Positions 1,724 to 6,968 of a stretch of 64,000 nt of DNA are shown here, piece after piece. The notes under the pieces are model-generated. The model was not told the DNA's origin, did not search any database, and saw only the letters and a program-made list of their open reading frames with translations. The DNA is from Streptomyces sp. LUP30 (GTDB lineage Bacteria > Actinomycetota > Actinomycetes > Streptomycetales > Streptomycetaceae): assembly GCF_001746365.1 (NCBI RefSeq), contig NZ_MJAJ01000039.1:1-64000 (forward strand), written 5' to 3'. The first letter of the stretch is position 1; every line of letters begins with the position of its first letter. Position numbers and translations under genes: made by a program.

Positions 1724-2506
1724 CTACAGCGGCGTCACGTAGGCGCCCGAGATCCCGCCGTCCACCAGGAAGTCGGTGGCGTTGACGAAGGAGGAGTCGT
1801 CGCTGGCCAGGAAGGCGACGGCGGCGGCGATCTCCTCGGCCTCGGCGAACCGGCCCACCGGGATGTGGACCAGGCGGCGGGCGGCCCGCTCCGGGTCCTT
1901 GGCGAACAGCTCCTGCAGCAGCGGGGTGTTGACCGGGCCGGGGCACAGGGCGTTGACCCGGATGCCCTCCCGGGCGAACTGCACGCCGAGTTCACGGGAC
2001 ATGGCCAGCACACCGCCCTTGGACGCCGTGTACGAGATCTGCGAGGTGGCGGCGCCCATCCTCGCCACGAACGACGCCGTGTTGATGATCGAGCCCCGGC
2101 CCTGGCGCCGCATGTAGGGGATGGCGGCCTTGCAGCACAGGTAGACGGAGGTCAGGTTGACCTCCTGGACCCGCTTCCAGGCCTCCAGGCCGGTCTCCAG
2201 GATGGAGTCGTCGTCGGGCGGCGAGATCCCGGCGTTGTTGAACGCGATGTCGACGCTGCCGTAGGTGTCGTGAGCGGTCCTGAAGAGTGCCTCGACCTGC
2301 TCGGGGTCGGTGACGTCGACCTTCACGAAGAGGCCGCCGACGTCTTCGGCGGCGGCCTTGCCGCGGGTCTCGTCGACGTCGCCGCAGACCACGTGCGCCC
2401 CCTCGGCGGCGAGCCGGCGGGCGGTGGCGAGGCCGATGCCGCTGCCGGCTCCGGTGACGACGGCGGTCCGGCCCACGAGCCGGCGGCAGACGATCTCTCT
2501 GGTCAC
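1724..2506 (-). CDS. SDR-family oxidoreductase, last gene of the glnA4 operon
   Basis: A 260-residue classical short-chain dehydrogenase/reductase. The nucleotide-binding motif TGAGSGIG is at residues 18-25, NNAG near 90, and the catalytic Ser145, Tyr159 and Lys163 (YxxxK as YTASK) are all present. The C-terminal FLVDGGISG is typical of the family. The GTG start overlaps the aldehyde dehydrogenase stop as GTGA, so translation is coupled. Its place after a gamma-glutamyl ligase and an aldehyde dehydrogenase suggests that it oxidises an alcohol group of a gamma-glutamylated amine, for instance gamma-glutamylethanolamide. That role is inference. Annotation as '3-oxoacyl-ACP reductase' would be generic. 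Confidence 0.88.
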   Translation of the reverse strand: MTREIVCRRLVGRTAVVTGAGSGIGLATARRLAAEGAHVVCGDVDETRGKAAAEDVGGLFVKVDVTDPEQVEALFRTAHDTYGSVDIAFNNAGISPPDDDSILETGLEAWKRVQEVNLTSVYLCCKAAIPYMRRQGRGSIINTASFVARMGAATSQISYTASKGGVLAMSRELGVQFAREGIRVNALCPGPVNTPLLQELFAKDPERAARRLVHIPVGRFAEAEEIAAAVAFLASDDSSFVNATDFLVDGGISGAYVTPL

Positions 2507-3921
2507 TGTGCGGGGCCCTCCGTGCTGATGAAGACGTTCTTGGTCTCGGTGAAGGCGGTCAGGGCGTCCGGACCCAGCTCACGGCCGACGCCGGACTGTT
2601 TGTAACCGCCGAAGGGGGTCCAGTAGCGGACGCTGGAGTGGGAGTTGACGGACAGGTTCCCGGCGCGCACGGCCTGCGAGACGCGCAGGGCGCGGCCCAC
2701 GTCCCGGGTCCAGATGGAACCGGAGAGGCCGTAGGGGGTGTCGTTGGCGAGCCGGATCGCGTCCGCCTCGTCCGTGAAGGGGAGCAGGACGGCCACCGGC
2801 CCGAAGATCTCCTCGCGGGCGGCGGCCGAGTCGGGCGCGGCGCCGGTGAGGACGGTCGGCGGGAACCAGAAGCCGGGGCCCTCGGGCGCTCCGCCGCGCA
2901 GCGCCTCGGCGTCGTCGGGGACGAACGACCGTACGCGGTCCACCTGCTGACGGGAGATCAGCGGGCCCATCTGCGTGCCTTCGTCGGCCGGGTCGCCGAC
3001 CACGACGGCGGCCAGTTCGCGCGCGAGGTGGTCGGCGACCTCGTCGTACACCGACTCCTGGACGAGGATGCGGGTGCGGGCGCAGCAGTCCTGGCCGGAG
3101 TTGTCGAGGAACGAGAACGGGTCGACGGCCCGCTTCAGGTCGGCGTCCGCGAAGACGACGTTGGGGCTCTTGCCGCCGAGTTCGAGGGTGACGGGCTTGA
3201 CCTGGCCGGCGCAGCGCTCCATGACCTCGCGCCCGGTGCGGGTGGAACCGGTGAACACGATCTTCGCGACGCCGGGGTGGTCGACGAGCGCCCGTCCGGC
3301 GACCGCGCCGTGGCCGGGCAGCACCTGGAAGAGGTGCTCGGGCAGGCCTGCCTCCAGGGCCAGTTCGGCCAGGCGCAGGGCGGTGAGCGGGGTCGTCTCG
3401 GCGGGCTTGAGGACGACGGCGTTGCCGGCGGCGAGGGCCGGGAAGGAGCCCCAGGCGGCGATCGGCATGGGAAAGTTCCAGGGGGCGATCACGCCGACCA
3501 CGCCGAGGGGCTCGTGGAAGGTGACGTTCCAGCCGCCGGGGGCGGGGATCTGCCGGCCCAGGAGCCGCTCCACGCCGCCGGCCGCGTAGAGCAGCAGGTC
3601 GCGGGCGTTGCCGGCCTCCCAGCGGGCGTTGCCGAGCAGATGACCGGCCTCGCGGACCTCCAGCAGCGCCAGTTCCTCGACGTGGGCGTCGACGACGTCG
3701 GCGAAGCGGCGCAGCAGCCGGGCCCGGTCGGCTGGGGCGGCGGCTGCCCAGGCGGTCTGGGCGGCGCGCGCACGGGTGACCGCGCGGTCGACGTCGGCCG
3801 CGTCGGCGGCGGGGACCGTGGCGATGACCTCCTCGGTGGCCGGGTCGAGGACGGTCAGCTCGTGCGGGAACGGCTCGGGCGGGCGCTGCTCGCCGGAGGA
3901 CGGCGCGTGCGGGTGGGACAC
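2503..3921 (-). CDS. NAD(P)-dependent aldehyde dehydrogenase
   Basis: A 472-residue ALDH-superfamily enzyme. It shows the cofactor segment APWNFPMPIA, Glu247 in TLELGGKSPN, the catalytic Cys279 in NSGQDCCA, and the EEIFGPV and PFGGYKQSG motifs near the C-terminus. The GTG start at 3921 is preceded by AAAGG, and its stop overlaps the SDR start. Eleven bases separate it from the glutamine synthetase-like gene, so the three form one operon. In the analogous E. coli Puu pathway the ALDH (PuuC) oxidises a gamma-glutamyl-aminoaldehyde. Here it would act on the aldehyde made from the GlnA4 product. The exact substrate is not provable from sequence. Confidence 0.9.
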   Translation of the reverse strand: MSHPHAPSSGEQRPPEPFPHELTVLDPATEEVIATVPAADAADVDRAVTRARAAQTAWAAAAPADRARLLRRFADVVDAHVEELALLEVREAGHLLGNARWEAGNARDLLLYAAGGVERLLGRQIPAPGGWNVTFHEPLGVVGVIAPWNFPMPIAAWGSFPALAAGNAVVLKPAETTPLTALRLAELALEAGLPEHLFQVLPGHGAVAGRALVDHPGVAKIVFTGSTRTGREVMERCAGQVKPVTLELGGKSPNVVFADADLKRAVDPFSFLDNSGQDCCARTRILVQESVYDEVADHLARELAAVVVGDPADEGTQMGPLISRQQVDRVRSFVPDDAEALRGGAPEGPGFWFPPTVLTGAAPDSAAAREEIFGPVAVLLPFTDEADAIRLANDTPYGLSGSIWTRDVGRALRVSQAVRAGNLSVNSHSSVRYWTPFGGYKQSGVGRELGPDALTAFTETKNVFISTEGPAQ

Positions 3922-3932
3922 GGCAGGACCTT

Positions 3933-5303
3933 TCACAGGCGTTCGAAGGAGCGGCGCAGCTCCCAGTCGGTGACCGCGGCGTCGAAGGCGGCCAGCTCGA
4001 CGCGGGCCATGTTGCGGTAGTGCGCGACGACCTCCTCGCCGAAGGCGGCTCGCGCGATCGGGCTGCCCTCCCAGAGCTCGGCGGCCTCGCGCAAGGTGGT
4101 GGGCACATGCGCGTAGTCGGCGGTGTAGGCGTTGCCGGCGCAGGCTTCGGGCAGCTCCAGTTTCTGTTCGACGCCGTGGAGGCCCGCGGCGATCAGCGCG
4201 GCCACCGCGAGGTGCGGGTTGACGTCGCCGCCGGGCAGCCGGTTCTCGAAGCGCATGGAGCGGCCGTGGCCGACGACCCGCAGCGCGCAGGTGCGGTTGT
4301 CGTGCCCCCAGGCGACGGCGGTCGGGGCGAAGGAGCCGGGCTGGAACCGCTTGTAGGAGTTGATGTTGGGGGCGTACAGCAGGGAGAAGTCGCGCAGGGC
4401 GGCGAGCTGTCCGGCGAGGAAGTGGCGCATGAGCCCGGACATGTGGTCCGGGTCCTGGTCCGTGCCGGCCATGACGTTCGTGCCGTCGGCGTCGGTGAGC
4501 GAGAGGTGGATGTGGCAGGAGTTGCCCTCGCGCTCGTTGAACTTGGCCATGAAGGTCAGCGAGACGCCCTCTTGCGCGGCGATCTCCTTGGCGCCGGTCT
4601 TGTAGATCGCGTGCTGGTCGCAGGTGACGAGGGCTTCGTCGTAGCGGAAGGCGATCTCGTGCTGCCCGGGGTTGCACTCGCCCTTGGCGGACTCGACGGT
4701 GAGTCCGGCGCCCGCCATCTCGTTGCGGATACGGCGCAGCAGCGGCTCCACCCGGCCGGTGCCGAGCACCGAGTAGTCGACGTTGTACTGGTTGACGGGG
4801 GTGAGGCCCCGGTAGTTCGCGTCCCAGGCGGCCTCGTAGCTGTCCTTGAAGACGATGAACTCCAGCTCGGTGCCGACCTGCGCGGTGAGGCCGTGCTCGG
4901 CCAGCCGCTCCAGCTGGCGGCGCAGGATCTGGCGCGGGGCGGCGGTCACGGGCGATCCGTCGTGCCAGGCCAGGTCGGCGATCAGCATCGCCGTTCCGGC
5001 GTTCCAGGGCACGCGCCGCAGGGTGGAGAGGTCGGGACGCATGGCGAAGTCGCCGTAGCCGCTCTCCCAGGAGGACATGGCGTACCCGTCGACGGTGTTC
5101 ATCTCCGTGTCGACGGCGAGGAGGTAGTTGCAGCCCTCGGTGCCGTGCCGGAGGACCTCGTCGAGGAAGAATCCGGCGGCGAACCGCTTGCCCTGGAGCC
5201 GCCCTTGCATGTCGGGGAAGGCGAGGACGACAGTGTCGATCTCACCGCCCGCGACGAGGGCGTGCAGTTCCTCGACGGCGAGCGGGGGTGTGCGGTCTGC
5301 CAC
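3933..5303 (-). CDS. glnA4: GlnA4-type glutamine synthetase-like gamma-glutamyl amide ligase
   Basis: A 456-residue glutamine synthetase-fold enzyme. The beta-grasp N-terminus is followed by the catalytic domain with ELEF (near 145), the ATP/metal segment GECNPGQHEI, FMAKFNEREGNSCHIHLSL and the NINSYKRF and ENRLPGGDVNPHLA segments. It is shorter than housekeeping GSI and sits with ALDH, SDR, a GntR regulator and a C26 hydrolase. That matches the S. coelicolor glnA4 locus, whose product has been reported as a gamma-glutamylethanolamide synthetase; identity is from memory and context. The GTG start at 5303 has a GAGGAGG ribosome-binding site. It is divergent from the GntR gene across about 107 bases that contain the shared inverted repeat. 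Confidence 0.9.
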   Translation of the reverse strand: MADRTPPLAVEELHALVAGGEIDTVVLAFPDMQGRLQGKRFAAGFFLDEVLRHGTEGCNYLLAVDTEMNTVDGYAMSSWESGYGDFAMRPDLSTLRRVPWNAGTAMLIADLAWHDGSPVTAAPRQILRRQLERLAEHGLTAQVGTELEFIVFKDSYEAAWDANYRGLTPVNQYNVDYSVLGTGRVEPLLRRIRNEMAGAGLTVESAKGECNPGQHEIAFRYDEALVTCDQHAIYKTGAKEIAAQEGVSLTFMAKFNEREGNSCHIHLSLTDADGTNVMAGTDQDPDHMSGLMRHFLAGQLAALRDFSLLYAPNINSYKRFQPGSFAPTAVAWGHDNRTCALRVVGHGRSMRFENRLPGGDVNPHLAVAALIAAGLHGVEQKLELPEACAGNAYTADYAHVPTTLREAAELWEGSPIARAAFGEEVVAHYRNMARVELAAFDAAVTDWELRRSFERL

Positions 5304-5364
5304 GGGAGGGCCTCCTCAGGCTTCCTGGCTTCCGTCGCCTTCTGCGGGACGGCGGTCGATGGCC

Positions 5365-5388
5365 ATAAGGTATTGCGGAGAACCATTG
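5365..5388. promoter_or_regulatory. Candidate GntR operator, copy 1 (glnA4/regulator divergon)
   Basis: A 24-base imperfect inverted repeat, left arm ATAAGGTAT and right arm ACCATTG, lies between glnA4 and the divergent GntR gene, just before the GntR ribosome-binding site. Fifteen of 24 positions are identical, without gaps, to the repeat in front of the C26 hydrolase gene at 6169. Operator function is inferred from the repetition, the symmetry and the position next to a GntR gene. Confidence 0.6.
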
Positions 5389-5410
5389 CTTGGGAAGGGG
5401 GCGCGGCCTG

Positions 5411-6145
5411 ATGGCGGTGAGCGCTGACGGCGGACCGGACGACCGGCTGACCCCGGTGCTGCGGCCGGTGCGGGCCGGGAACGGCTTCGAGGAGGCGCTG
5501 GAGCAGATCCTGCAGGTGGTCCGGCTGGGGCTGGTGCCGGGGGGTGGCCGGCTGCCGGCCGAGCGGGAGCTGGCGGAGCGGCTCGGCATCAGCCGGGTGA
5601 CGCTGCGCGAGGTCCTCAAGGTGCTCCAGGACCAGGGGCTGGTCGAGTCCCGCCGGGGCCGGTACGGCGGGACGTTCGTGCTGCCGCGCACGGACGGCGG
5701 CGGCGAGGACGAGCTGCGGCGGCGCGTCGCGGAGACCGACGTCGAGGACGTGCTGCGCTTCCGGGAGGTGCTGGAGGTGGGCGCGGCGGGTCTGTGCGCC
5801 GCGCACGGGCTGTCGGACGAGCGGGCGGGGCGGCTGCGCGCGGCCCTGGCCGGCACGGCGGACGCCCCGCTGGCCGACTACCGCCGCCGGGACACGCTGC
5901 TCCACCTGACCCTGGCCGAGCTGTGCGGCTCCCCCTCGCTGACGGCGCAGTACGCGGCGGTGCGGGCCACGGTGAACGACCTGCTGGACTGCATACCGCT
6001 CCTCGTGCGCAACCTGGAGCACTCCCAGCGCCAGCACGCGGCGCTGGTGGAGGCGGTGCTGGACGGCGACGCGGACGGCGCGCGGGAGATGATGCGGGAG
6101 CACTGCGCCGGGACGGCGGCCCTGCTCAGGGGCTTCCTCACCTGA
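5411..6145 (+). CDS. GntR/FadR-subfamily transcriptional regulator
   Basis: A 244-residue regulator. The winged helix-turn-helix spans about residues 25-90 (RLPAERELAERLGISRVTLREVLKVL, then the wing RRGRYGGTFV), and an all-helical FCD ligand-binding domain follows (VEDVLRFREVLEVGAAGL ... DYRRRDTLLHLTLAELCGS ... MREHC). The ATG at 5411 is chosen because GGGAAGGGG ends 10 bases upstream; an in-frame ATG at 5390 lacks such a site. It is divergent from glnA4 and followed after 64 bases by the C26 hydrolase gene. By position it corresponds to the regulator reported to control glnA4 in S. coelicolor (I recall the name EpuRII). The ligand is presumably a gamma-glutamyl pathway substrate or product. 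Confidence 0.88.
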   Translation: MAVSADGGPDDRLTPVLRPVRAGNGFEEALEQILQVVRLGLVPGGGRLPAERELAERLGISRVTLREVLKVLQDQGLVESRRGRYGGTFVLPRTDGGGEDELRRRVAETDVEDVLRFREVLEVGAAGLCAAHGLSDERAGRLRAALAGTADAPLADYRRRDTLLHLTLAELCGSPSLTAQYAAVRATVNDLLDCIPLLVRNLEHSQRQHAALVEAVLDGDADGAREMMREHCAGTAALLRGFLT

Positions 6146-6168
6146 GGGGCGCGCACGCAGGGACCGTA

Positions 6169-6192
6169 CAATGGTATGAAGGCGGTCCATTG
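6169..6192. promoter_or_regulatory. Candidate GntR operator, copy 2 (upstream of C26 hydrolase)
   Basis: An inverted repeat with perfect 6-base arms, CAATGG and CCATTG, separated by 12 bases, ending 17 bases before the hydrolase start. It aligns without gaps to the repeat at 5365-5388, including GGTAT on the left and CCATTG on the right. It overlaps the region where a promoter or leader of the hydrolase gene would lie, which suits repression. Confidence 0.6.
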
Positions 6193-6209
6193 AACGGCCG
6201 GAGGGGCAC

Positions 6210-6968
6210 ATGACGACTACGGCGGAGGCGACGGCGACCGGGACCGACGCGGCGGGCCCAAGGCCGCTGATCGGCGTCAGCACCTATCTGGAGTCGGGTG
6301 CGCGCTGGGGCGTGTGGGAGCTGGACGCGGCGCTGCTGCCCGCCGGATACCCGCGGCTCGTGCAGCGGGCCGGCGGACTGGCCGCGATGCTTCCGCCGGA
6401 CGCGCCCGGACACGCGGCGGCGACCGTGGCCCGCCTCGACGCACTGGTGATCGCGGGCGGCCCCGACGTCGAACCCGGCCGCTACGGCGCGGAGCCGGAT
6501 CCCCGCACCGGGCCGCCTGCGCGGGAGCGCGACGCCTGGGAGCTGGCCCTGATCGAGGCGGCGCTGGCGGCCGGCCTGCCGCTGCTCGGCATCTGCCGCG
6601 GCATGCAGCTCCTGAACGTCGCTCTCGGCGGCACCCTGACGCAGCACCTCGACGGGCACGTCGAGGCGGTGGGCGTCGTGGGCCGCCACCCGGTCGAGCC
6701 GGTCCCGGGCACGCTGTACGCCCGGGTGGTGGCGGAGGAGACCTCCGTGCCGACCTATCACCATCAGGCGGTGGACCGCCTGGGCGCGGGGCTGATCGCG
6801 GCGGCGCACGCGGCGGACGGCACCGTGGAGGCCGTCGAGCTGCCGTCCGCCGCCTGGGTGCTGGGGGTGCAGTGGCATCCGGAGATGGGCGAGGACGTCC
6901 GCGTGATGCGCGCCCTGGTCACCGCCGCCTCCCGCCCCGGGGCCCGGACCACAGGCCCCGCTCAGTGA
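6210..6968 (+). CDS. Gamma-glutamyl hydrolase of the PuuD type (peptidase C26)
   Basis: A 252-residue class-I glutamine amidotransferase-like hydrolase. The nucleophile elbow LLGICRGMQ places the catalytic Cys at 129, and QWHPE near the C-terminus gives His223 and Glu225; DALVIAGGPDV is the usual family segment. PuuD-type enzymes split gamma-glutamyl-amine conjugates into glutamate and the modified amine product. Here it would be the last step after GlnA4, SDR and ALDH. The ribosome-binding site is GGAGGGG. The operator-like repeat upstream is shared with the glnA4 promoter region, so the gene is probably in the same regulon although it is on the opposite strand to glnA4. Confidence 0.88.
   Translation: MTTTAEATATGTDAAGPRPLIGVSTYLESGARWGVWELDAALLPAGYPRLVQRAGGLAAMLPPDAPGHAAATVARLDALVIAGGPDVEPGRYGAEPDPRTGPPARERDAWELALIEAALAAGLPLLGICRGMQLLNVALGGTLTQHLDGHVEAVGVVGRHPVEPVPGTLYARVVAEETSVPTYHHQAVDRLGAGLIAAAHAADGTVEAVELPSAAWVLGVQWHPEMGEDVRVMRALVTAASRPGARTTGPAQ

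Follow-up and report, generated by a model that had tools for sequence, protein, structure and literature searches.

Two 24-bp sites around a GntR/FCD regulator gene in the Streptomyces ethanolamine cluster and their probable role as operators

The locus and its regulator

The window analysed here is a stretch of 64,000 nucleotides from Streptomyces sp. LUP30 (contig NZ_MJAJ01000039.1, positions 1 to 64,000, forward strand), in which a gntR gene lies between two similar 24-base sites. Site 1 occupies the gap between gntR and the divergent gene glnA4, and site 2 stands ahead of a gene for a C26 hydrolase (Table 1). The gene order is that of SCO1611–SCO1615 of S. coelicolor, the ethanolamine gamma-glutamylation cluster. 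Very probably, the two sites serve as operators for the GntR/FCD repressor whose gene they flank, an orthologue of EpuRI; that these letters are the contact site of the repressor is deduced from sequence comparison. The names that a preliminary description had given to the genes (glnA4, GntR/FCD, Peptidase_C26) agree with the domain profiles.

The regulator is a member of the FadR (FCD) subfamily of the GntR family, with an N-terminal winged helix (PF00392, 50.1 bits) and a C-terminal FCD domain (PF07729, 66.1 bits), both over the cut-off. In all 70 aligned sequences, D161, H165, H209 and H231 are invariant, and D-x3-H, H, H is the pattern of metal-binding FCD domains. The residues that read DNA (P49, E51, R52, S61, R62, R66 and R82-G83-R84) are likewise invariant in 70 of 70, and a FadR-like reading of GGT is therefore likely. 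In structure comparisons, solved GntR/FCD regulators top the match lists. Whole-chain matches have a root-mean-square deviation of about 7–14 Å, as the angle between the domains differs; compared singly, the domains fit, with 1.5 Å over 74 residues for the DNA-binding domain of AraR and 1.8 Å over 132 for the inducer domain of DhdR. The AlphaFold2 model (mean predicted local confidence, pLDDT, 91) is a monomer and is uninformative on the distance between the DNA-binding domains of a dimer.

One of the compared loci (L189) is matched by six of the eight primers published for S. coelicolor, and its protein is 87% identical to the window regulator. Furthermore, glnA4 is the divergent neighbour in 129 of 130 loci, and in the one other it was not in the fetched stretch. 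By sequence and neighbourhood, the window regulator is thus classed as the orthologue of EpuRI (SCO1614). In S. coelicolor, epuRI is reported to encode a repressor of glnA4, as its deletion led to glnA4 expression on ammonium and to better growth on ethanolamine (PMC6529630). An electrophoretic mobility shift assay (EMSA) covered eight promoter fragments, and those of glnA4 and epuRI were among the ones shifted by EpuRI (PMC8998196). An operator sequence of EpuRI was not found in the accessible text of either paper or of the review PMC9397018, with supplementary files and subscription papers outside the search; the terms ‘operator’, ‘palindrom’ and ‘EMSA’ are absent from the main text of PMC6529630. 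A literature search with CAAAGGTA combined with GntR, or with footprint terms for GntR/FCD half-sites, gave no matches. The repression of glnA4 by EpuRI is therefore already known, and the window locus resembles the published one in its regulator and gene neighbourhood; what is new here is the definition of an operator and of a second target site, of which the published account, as far as available, gives no sequence.

Table 1. Features at the gntR locus, with positions in the window
Feature	Position	Strand	Remarks
Operator 1 (site 1)	5365..5388	no strand	ATAAGGTATTGCGGAGAACCATTG, between divergent glnA4 and gntR
Operator 2 (site 2)	6169..6192	no strand	CAATGGTATGAAGGCGGTCCATTG, ahead of the C26 hydrolase gene
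gntR (GntR/FCD repressor, EpuRI/SCO1614 orthologue)	5411..6145	+	PF00392, PF07729; start codon placed by conservation
glnA4 (gamma-glutamylethanolamide synthetase by orthology)	3933..5303	-	PF00120; neighbourhood as reported for SCO1613 (PMC6529630)
Aldehyde dehydrogenase (ALDH; SCO1612-like), probable glnA4 operon partner	2503..3921	-	PF00171; 11 bp after glnA4; putative start
Short-chain dehydrogenase (SDR; SCO1611-like position), probable operon partner	1724..2506	-	PF13561; overlaps the end of the ALDH gene
Peptidase_C26, gamma-glutamyl hydrolase-like (SCO1615-like position)	6210..6968	+	PF07722, 226.8 bits
Putative glnA4 -10, TACCTT	5367..5372	-	Within the left arm of operator 1; all 129 loci have TAnnnT
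Conserved TTGGGAAG	5390..5397	no strand	Beside operator 1; strongly conserved in 129 loci; putative role, see text

Together, glnA4, ALDH and SDR probably form one operon. The hydrolase of the window belongs to Peptidase_C26; a table in PMC9397018 that draws a comparison with C. salexigens lists PF05013 as the family of the pathway amidohydrolase. A close homologue of the permease of the cluster was not found in the genome of the window (best E 4.3e-6) or in the S. coelicolor-like genome G235 (best E 3.0e-11), the identity being about 30%, and S. coelicolor is also reported to have none (PMC6529630).

Conservation of the two sites

Both sites were found where the preliminary description had placed them, and their ungapped alignment shows 15 of 24 identical letters. 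They share one arm spacing, GG-N12-CC: site 1 reads GGT-N10-ACC and site 2 reads GGT-N10-TCC, where, as had been described, 12 bases separate CAATGG from CCATTG. The claim of ‘matching inverted repeats’ holds for the fixed spacing and the half-sites; however, it was generous for the symmetry of copy 1, as the outer arms are symmetric at four of eight positions in copy 1 and at six of eight in copy 2, which is modest for stand-alone inverted repeats. What the copies have in common are CAAWGGT-like half-sites at a single fixed spacing.

With at most one mismatch to AAWGGT-N10-ACCWTT, the two sites are the only matches within the window and two of four in the whole genome (9.18 Mb). The remaining two, C39:92192 (L131), which lies before a sugar-ABC-like binding protein gene by eye and has a degenerate right arm, and C63:15411 (L132), were not accepted as targets. 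If two mismatches are allowed, the genome contains 76 places versus 67 with the reversed pattern; with three, the window contains 11 matches versus a shuffle mean of 7.7. The pattern with two or three mismatches is weak evidence. In G235, the search with up to two mismatches gave 85 places versus 36 reversed, an excess that is larger than that of the window genome. Because this excess had no explanation and the places listed were only part of the total, the genome-wide pattern at this tolerance was dropped as a means to find the regulon. The G235 matches at C1:8568944 (L221, no mismatch) and C1:4040028 (L222, at most one mismatch) were not accepted as targets either. The claim is established by conservation among loci; the window sequence by itself is insufficient.

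Of 150 Streptomyces genomes searched at the protein level, 135 have a close match over the full length (best E 9.5e-79 or better); the remaining 15 have paralogue-like or partial matches only. The first comparison used 130 of the 135 loci, with L071 skipped for site 1, because glnA4 was not in the fetched stretch; a longer list of 193 loci was reduced to 188 by removing duplicates and any below 60% identity. The alignment of site 1 was anchored on TAAGGTA, which every gap contained, and the right arm was not imposed. All 129 glnA4/gntR gaps have TAAGGTA followed by ACCWTT, 10 nt past GGT. Thirteen arm positions of these copies carry 2.0 bits and position 13 in the centre carries 0.03 bits. The preliminary description had held that arms not conserved in close relatives would speak against an operator; the arms proved to be near-invariant and the centre variable.

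On the longer list, all 188 loci have operator 1 within one mismatch of AAWGG-N12-CCWTT (2 of 188 when shuffled), and 184 have operator 2 at this tolerance (4 of 188 when shuffled, 0 of 188 in a coding control). An inverted arrangement of the arms holds for 129 copies of operator 1 and 185 of operator 2. The commonest form of operator 2, CAAAGGTATG-N7-(A/T)CCWTTG, occurs in nearly all of the 130 loci. This site keeps its arms and spacing while its flanks vary, and it precedes the C26 gene or, in many other species, a permease gene, two unrelated kinds of gene. When the downstream frames of eight loci without an adjacent C26 gene were read, an amino-acid-permease-like frame was found in seven, the exception being L071.

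In L002 (G107), the glnA4/gntR gap is 265 bp, and a long series of tandem units like CTTGCTGG/CTTCCTGG lies in the glnA4 leader; no such units caught the eye in the other gaps inspected. The left arm of operator 1 occurs twice in tandem in L008 (CATAAGGT, then CATAAGGTATT) and in L067 (CATAAGGTAGT, then CTTAAGGTATT).

The spacing was scanned with gaps of 0–22 nt and half-site weights taken from operator 1 alone. The maximum at operator 2 lies at 10 nt, with 129 of the 130 loci versus about one in shuffles. Gaps of 9, 11 and 5 nt scored in 79, 61 and 64 loci, in our opinion because the arms are partly self-similar. The strict exact pattern CAAAGGTA-N10-CCWTTG was searched in 40 chosen genomes, 30 with the orthologue and 10 without. 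It was found in 19 places, 18 of which lie directly downstream of gntR by their coordinates, versus one for the reversed control, and in none of the ten genomes without an orthologue. The single off-locus match, in G058, was taken as chance, and in the other genomes with the orthologue the sites deviate from the strict form.

Two genomes, G070 (L196) and G116 (L197), have glnA4 (84–85% protein identity) as the divergent, direct neighbour of the C26 gene (72–73%), and the gntR orthologue is absent. Their glnA4–C26 gap contains no operator, the nearest sequence having four mismatches of ten, and the surrounding 12–13 kb contain none with at most one mismatch. In G145 and G010, where the gntR matches are split or partial, operator 1 is retained.

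In a wider search, 394 genomes of the class were covered; 114 have a homologue at E ≤ 1e-35, of which 76 lie outside Streptomyces. The distant set comprised 44 loci, namely 40 of these 76 plus four of a different family in this order, with orthologues of 42–58% identity. All four of the latter (L233–L236) have a site of the GG-N12-CC form between gntR and the first pathway gene: CAATGGATGGTTAGCCAACCATTA, CAATGGATGGTTTGCCAACCATTA and AAATGGACGACTGATCGTCCATTG ahead of a permease-like gene, and a weaker CAATGGACGAATCTCCGTCCAAAA ahead of glnA4. Upstream of gntR, the N10 gap reaches the threshold in 18 of the 44 distant loci, the highest of 23 gaps (shuffled, 3.7), and downstream, which served as a control, in one of 44. 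A strict arm filter gave candidates in eight of 44, and the spacing scan is the fairer test of such loci. A general dyad scan returned mostly G+C-rich chance dyads, from which the operator-like sites were chosen by eye; several of the distant sites read like CAATGGTCTGA-NN-TCAGACCATTG. Part of the distant orthologues thus appear to keep the GG-N12-CC geometry. As to gene order, the permease-like gene and glnA4 are consecutive behind one operator beside gntR in L233 (G156), L235 (G162) and L236 (G160), and in L235 and L236 a C26-like frame seems, by eye, to come after them.

Operator model, geometry and competing explanations

The preliminary description had proposed a GntR operator model for glnA4 and the C26 hydrolase. 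The model is supported by the conservation of both sites, by their absence together with the regulator in one lineage, and by the geometry in part of the distant orthologues. The half-site would be CAAWGGT, arranged as CAAWGGT-N10-ACCWTTG, which equals GG-N12-CC. Without inducer, the repressor on operator 1 would shut both the glnA4-ALDH-SDR operon and its own gene. This operator would take in the putative glnA4 -10 together with most of the spacer that separates it from the -35, a steric block, and it ends 22 bp ahead of the presumed gntR start codon. The repressor on operator 2 would shut the C26 hydrolase gene, or the permease gene where present. Ethanolamine, or a gamma-glutamyl product of it, may release the repressor by occupying the FCD pocket. 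The conserved TTGGGAAG, of which nothing similar was seen beside operator 2, may be part of the ribosome-binding region of gntR, the -35 of glnA4, or both; as a -35 it would read TTCCCA (positions 5396 to 5391 of the minus strand), at 18 nt from TACCTT. TACCTT and TTCCCA would make a plausible glnA4 promoter; a scan of 5250–6300 for sigma-70 promoters and terminators found nothing, and the promoter positions are therefore proposed from conservation.

The spacing is wider than that of the usual FadR/GntR box, as the preliminary description had remarked and as a published survey bears out (PMC4494728). There, FadR-subfamily boxes are given as TKGT/ACMA with GT and AC 3 nt apart, in some groups 2 nt. 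Operators of this subfamily (FadR, PdhR, LldR, DgoR and others) share with the window sites the palindrome, the GT/AC boxes and the A/T-rich surroundings (PMC4494728), whereas in the window 10 nt separate GT from AC and the step from GG to CC measures 14 bp, double that of the 3-nt FadR box (7 bp). The (GGTATA)3 operator of NanR from E. coli also belongs to an FCD-type GntR regulator and carries a GGTAT-like element outside the compact box; however, its elements are direct repeats (PMC8012715), and the window sites are inverted. YtrA-subfamily operators, too, have GT and AC at a long distance from the centre of the palindrome (PMC4494728), but the window regulator contains a complete FCD domain. 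HypR of S. coelicolor is a Streptomyces FadR-subfamily repressor with an atypical site, too, the published consensus of which, CTNTGC(A/C)ATGTCAC, has no clear symmetry (PMC6608401) and does not resemble CAAWGGT-N10-ACCWTTG.

Could the letters be conserved for another reason? A chance resemblance of two short sequences would be in keeping with the pattern being hardly over shuffles in the window at three mismatches, but it is refuted by the retention of operator 1 in all 188 loci and of operator 2 in 184 of them, and we regard this explanation as practically negligible. Another explanation is that the letters belong to the core promoter or are bound by a different regulator, with the GntR protein binding elsewhere. 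TAnnnT hexamers do overlap operator 1 on each strand, the conserved TTGGGAAG lies next to it, and the published EMSA shows shifted fragments, not bases (PMC8998196). However, operator 2 has no such constancy in its flanks, and the strict pattern is almost confined to the gntR locus. Furthermore, a plain promoter needs no dyad with a free centre, nor would it vanish with gntR while the genes stay. Such an explanation is therefore unlikely.

The stoichiometry is a separate matter, as a single dimer with spread DNA-binding domains or two dimers may occupy each site. Two EpuRI dimers per 24-bp site, each placing one winged helix on a GGT half-site and the second on non-consensus DNA, would resemble NanR, of which one domain of the dimer is reported to bind GGTATA and the other non-consensus DNA (PMC8012715). 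The step of twice 7 bp would suit this arrangement, and the invariant DNA-reading residues, together with the fit of the winged helix to the DNA-binding domain of AraR, suggest that each monomer probably reads GGT as usual. On the other hand, some distant orthologues have sites that, by eye, are symmetric towards the centre (like GGTCTGA-NN-TCAGACC), and one spread dimer would fit these as well. The two-dimer arrangement is possible, but less likely than not.

Published EpuRI targets and significance

Several observations weigh against the reading of the two sites as EpuRI operators. The flanks of operator 1 are conserved as well, and part of its conservation may therefore be due to the promoter. 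Operator 2 has four exceptions among the 188 loci, namely L033, which has a degenerate right arm, L241, which has no site, and L206 and L207, which have none despite the presence of the hydrolase gene. As the loci are related, the conservation counts are not independent events; likewise, the glnA4 genes of G070 and G116 share 88.8% DNA identity, and the loss of gntR may therefore be one event. Among the distant loci, 26 of 44 have no above-threshold site upstream of gntR, and a lower threshold gives a weak N10 peak (22 of 44 versus 11 shuffled); in several of the misses, the end of a short-chain dehydrogenase gene reaches gntR, so no promoter is expected there. The published boxes of the FadR subfamily are compact.

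The list of published targets adds to these. EpuRI is reported to shift fragments of sco5652, sco5654, sco5657 and the regulator genes epuRII and epuRIV (PMC8998196). The corresponding region was inspected in G235, which was treated as S. coelicolor-like because six of the eight published primers match. At its epuRI locus, the two operators score 29.8 and 15.8. Positions 2384000–2440000 (L228, L238, L239; 56 kb with gabT-, polyamine-transport-, frr- and pyrH-like genes by eye), which by SCO numbering presumably include sco5652–sco5657, have a best site of 10.3, below all 129 operator 2 sites scored alike (lowest 12.7), and contain nothing with fewer than two mismatches to AAWGG-N12-CCWTT. The EMSA targets near sco5652–sco5657 thus seem to be without such a site. 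Their shifts may be non-specific at high protein concentration or may rest on another sequence, and the latter would count against the present operator model.

Taken together, the locus is that of an ordinary local repressor with two operators, of which the site is defined, deeply conserved and unusual in geometry. A wider proposal is offered tentatively, at somewhat less than even confidence: that actinobacterial EpuRI reads an inverted repeat with half-sites 14 bp apart via a mode, be it a spread dimer or two dimers with a common centre, that we did not find described for FCD regulators on inverted repeats, that its direct regulon in Streptomyces is this cluster alone, and that the wider EMSA targets are indirect or non-specific. 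The analysis puts part of the published EpuRI target list in doubt. For a repressor of Streptomyces ethanolamine use that is known but has been little studied, it would provide a precise operator, with the glnA4 operon, the repressor gene itself and the hydrolase or permease gene as predicted direct targets, and a clean case for how a FadR-type protein may read half-sites that are twice as distant as those of its relatives.
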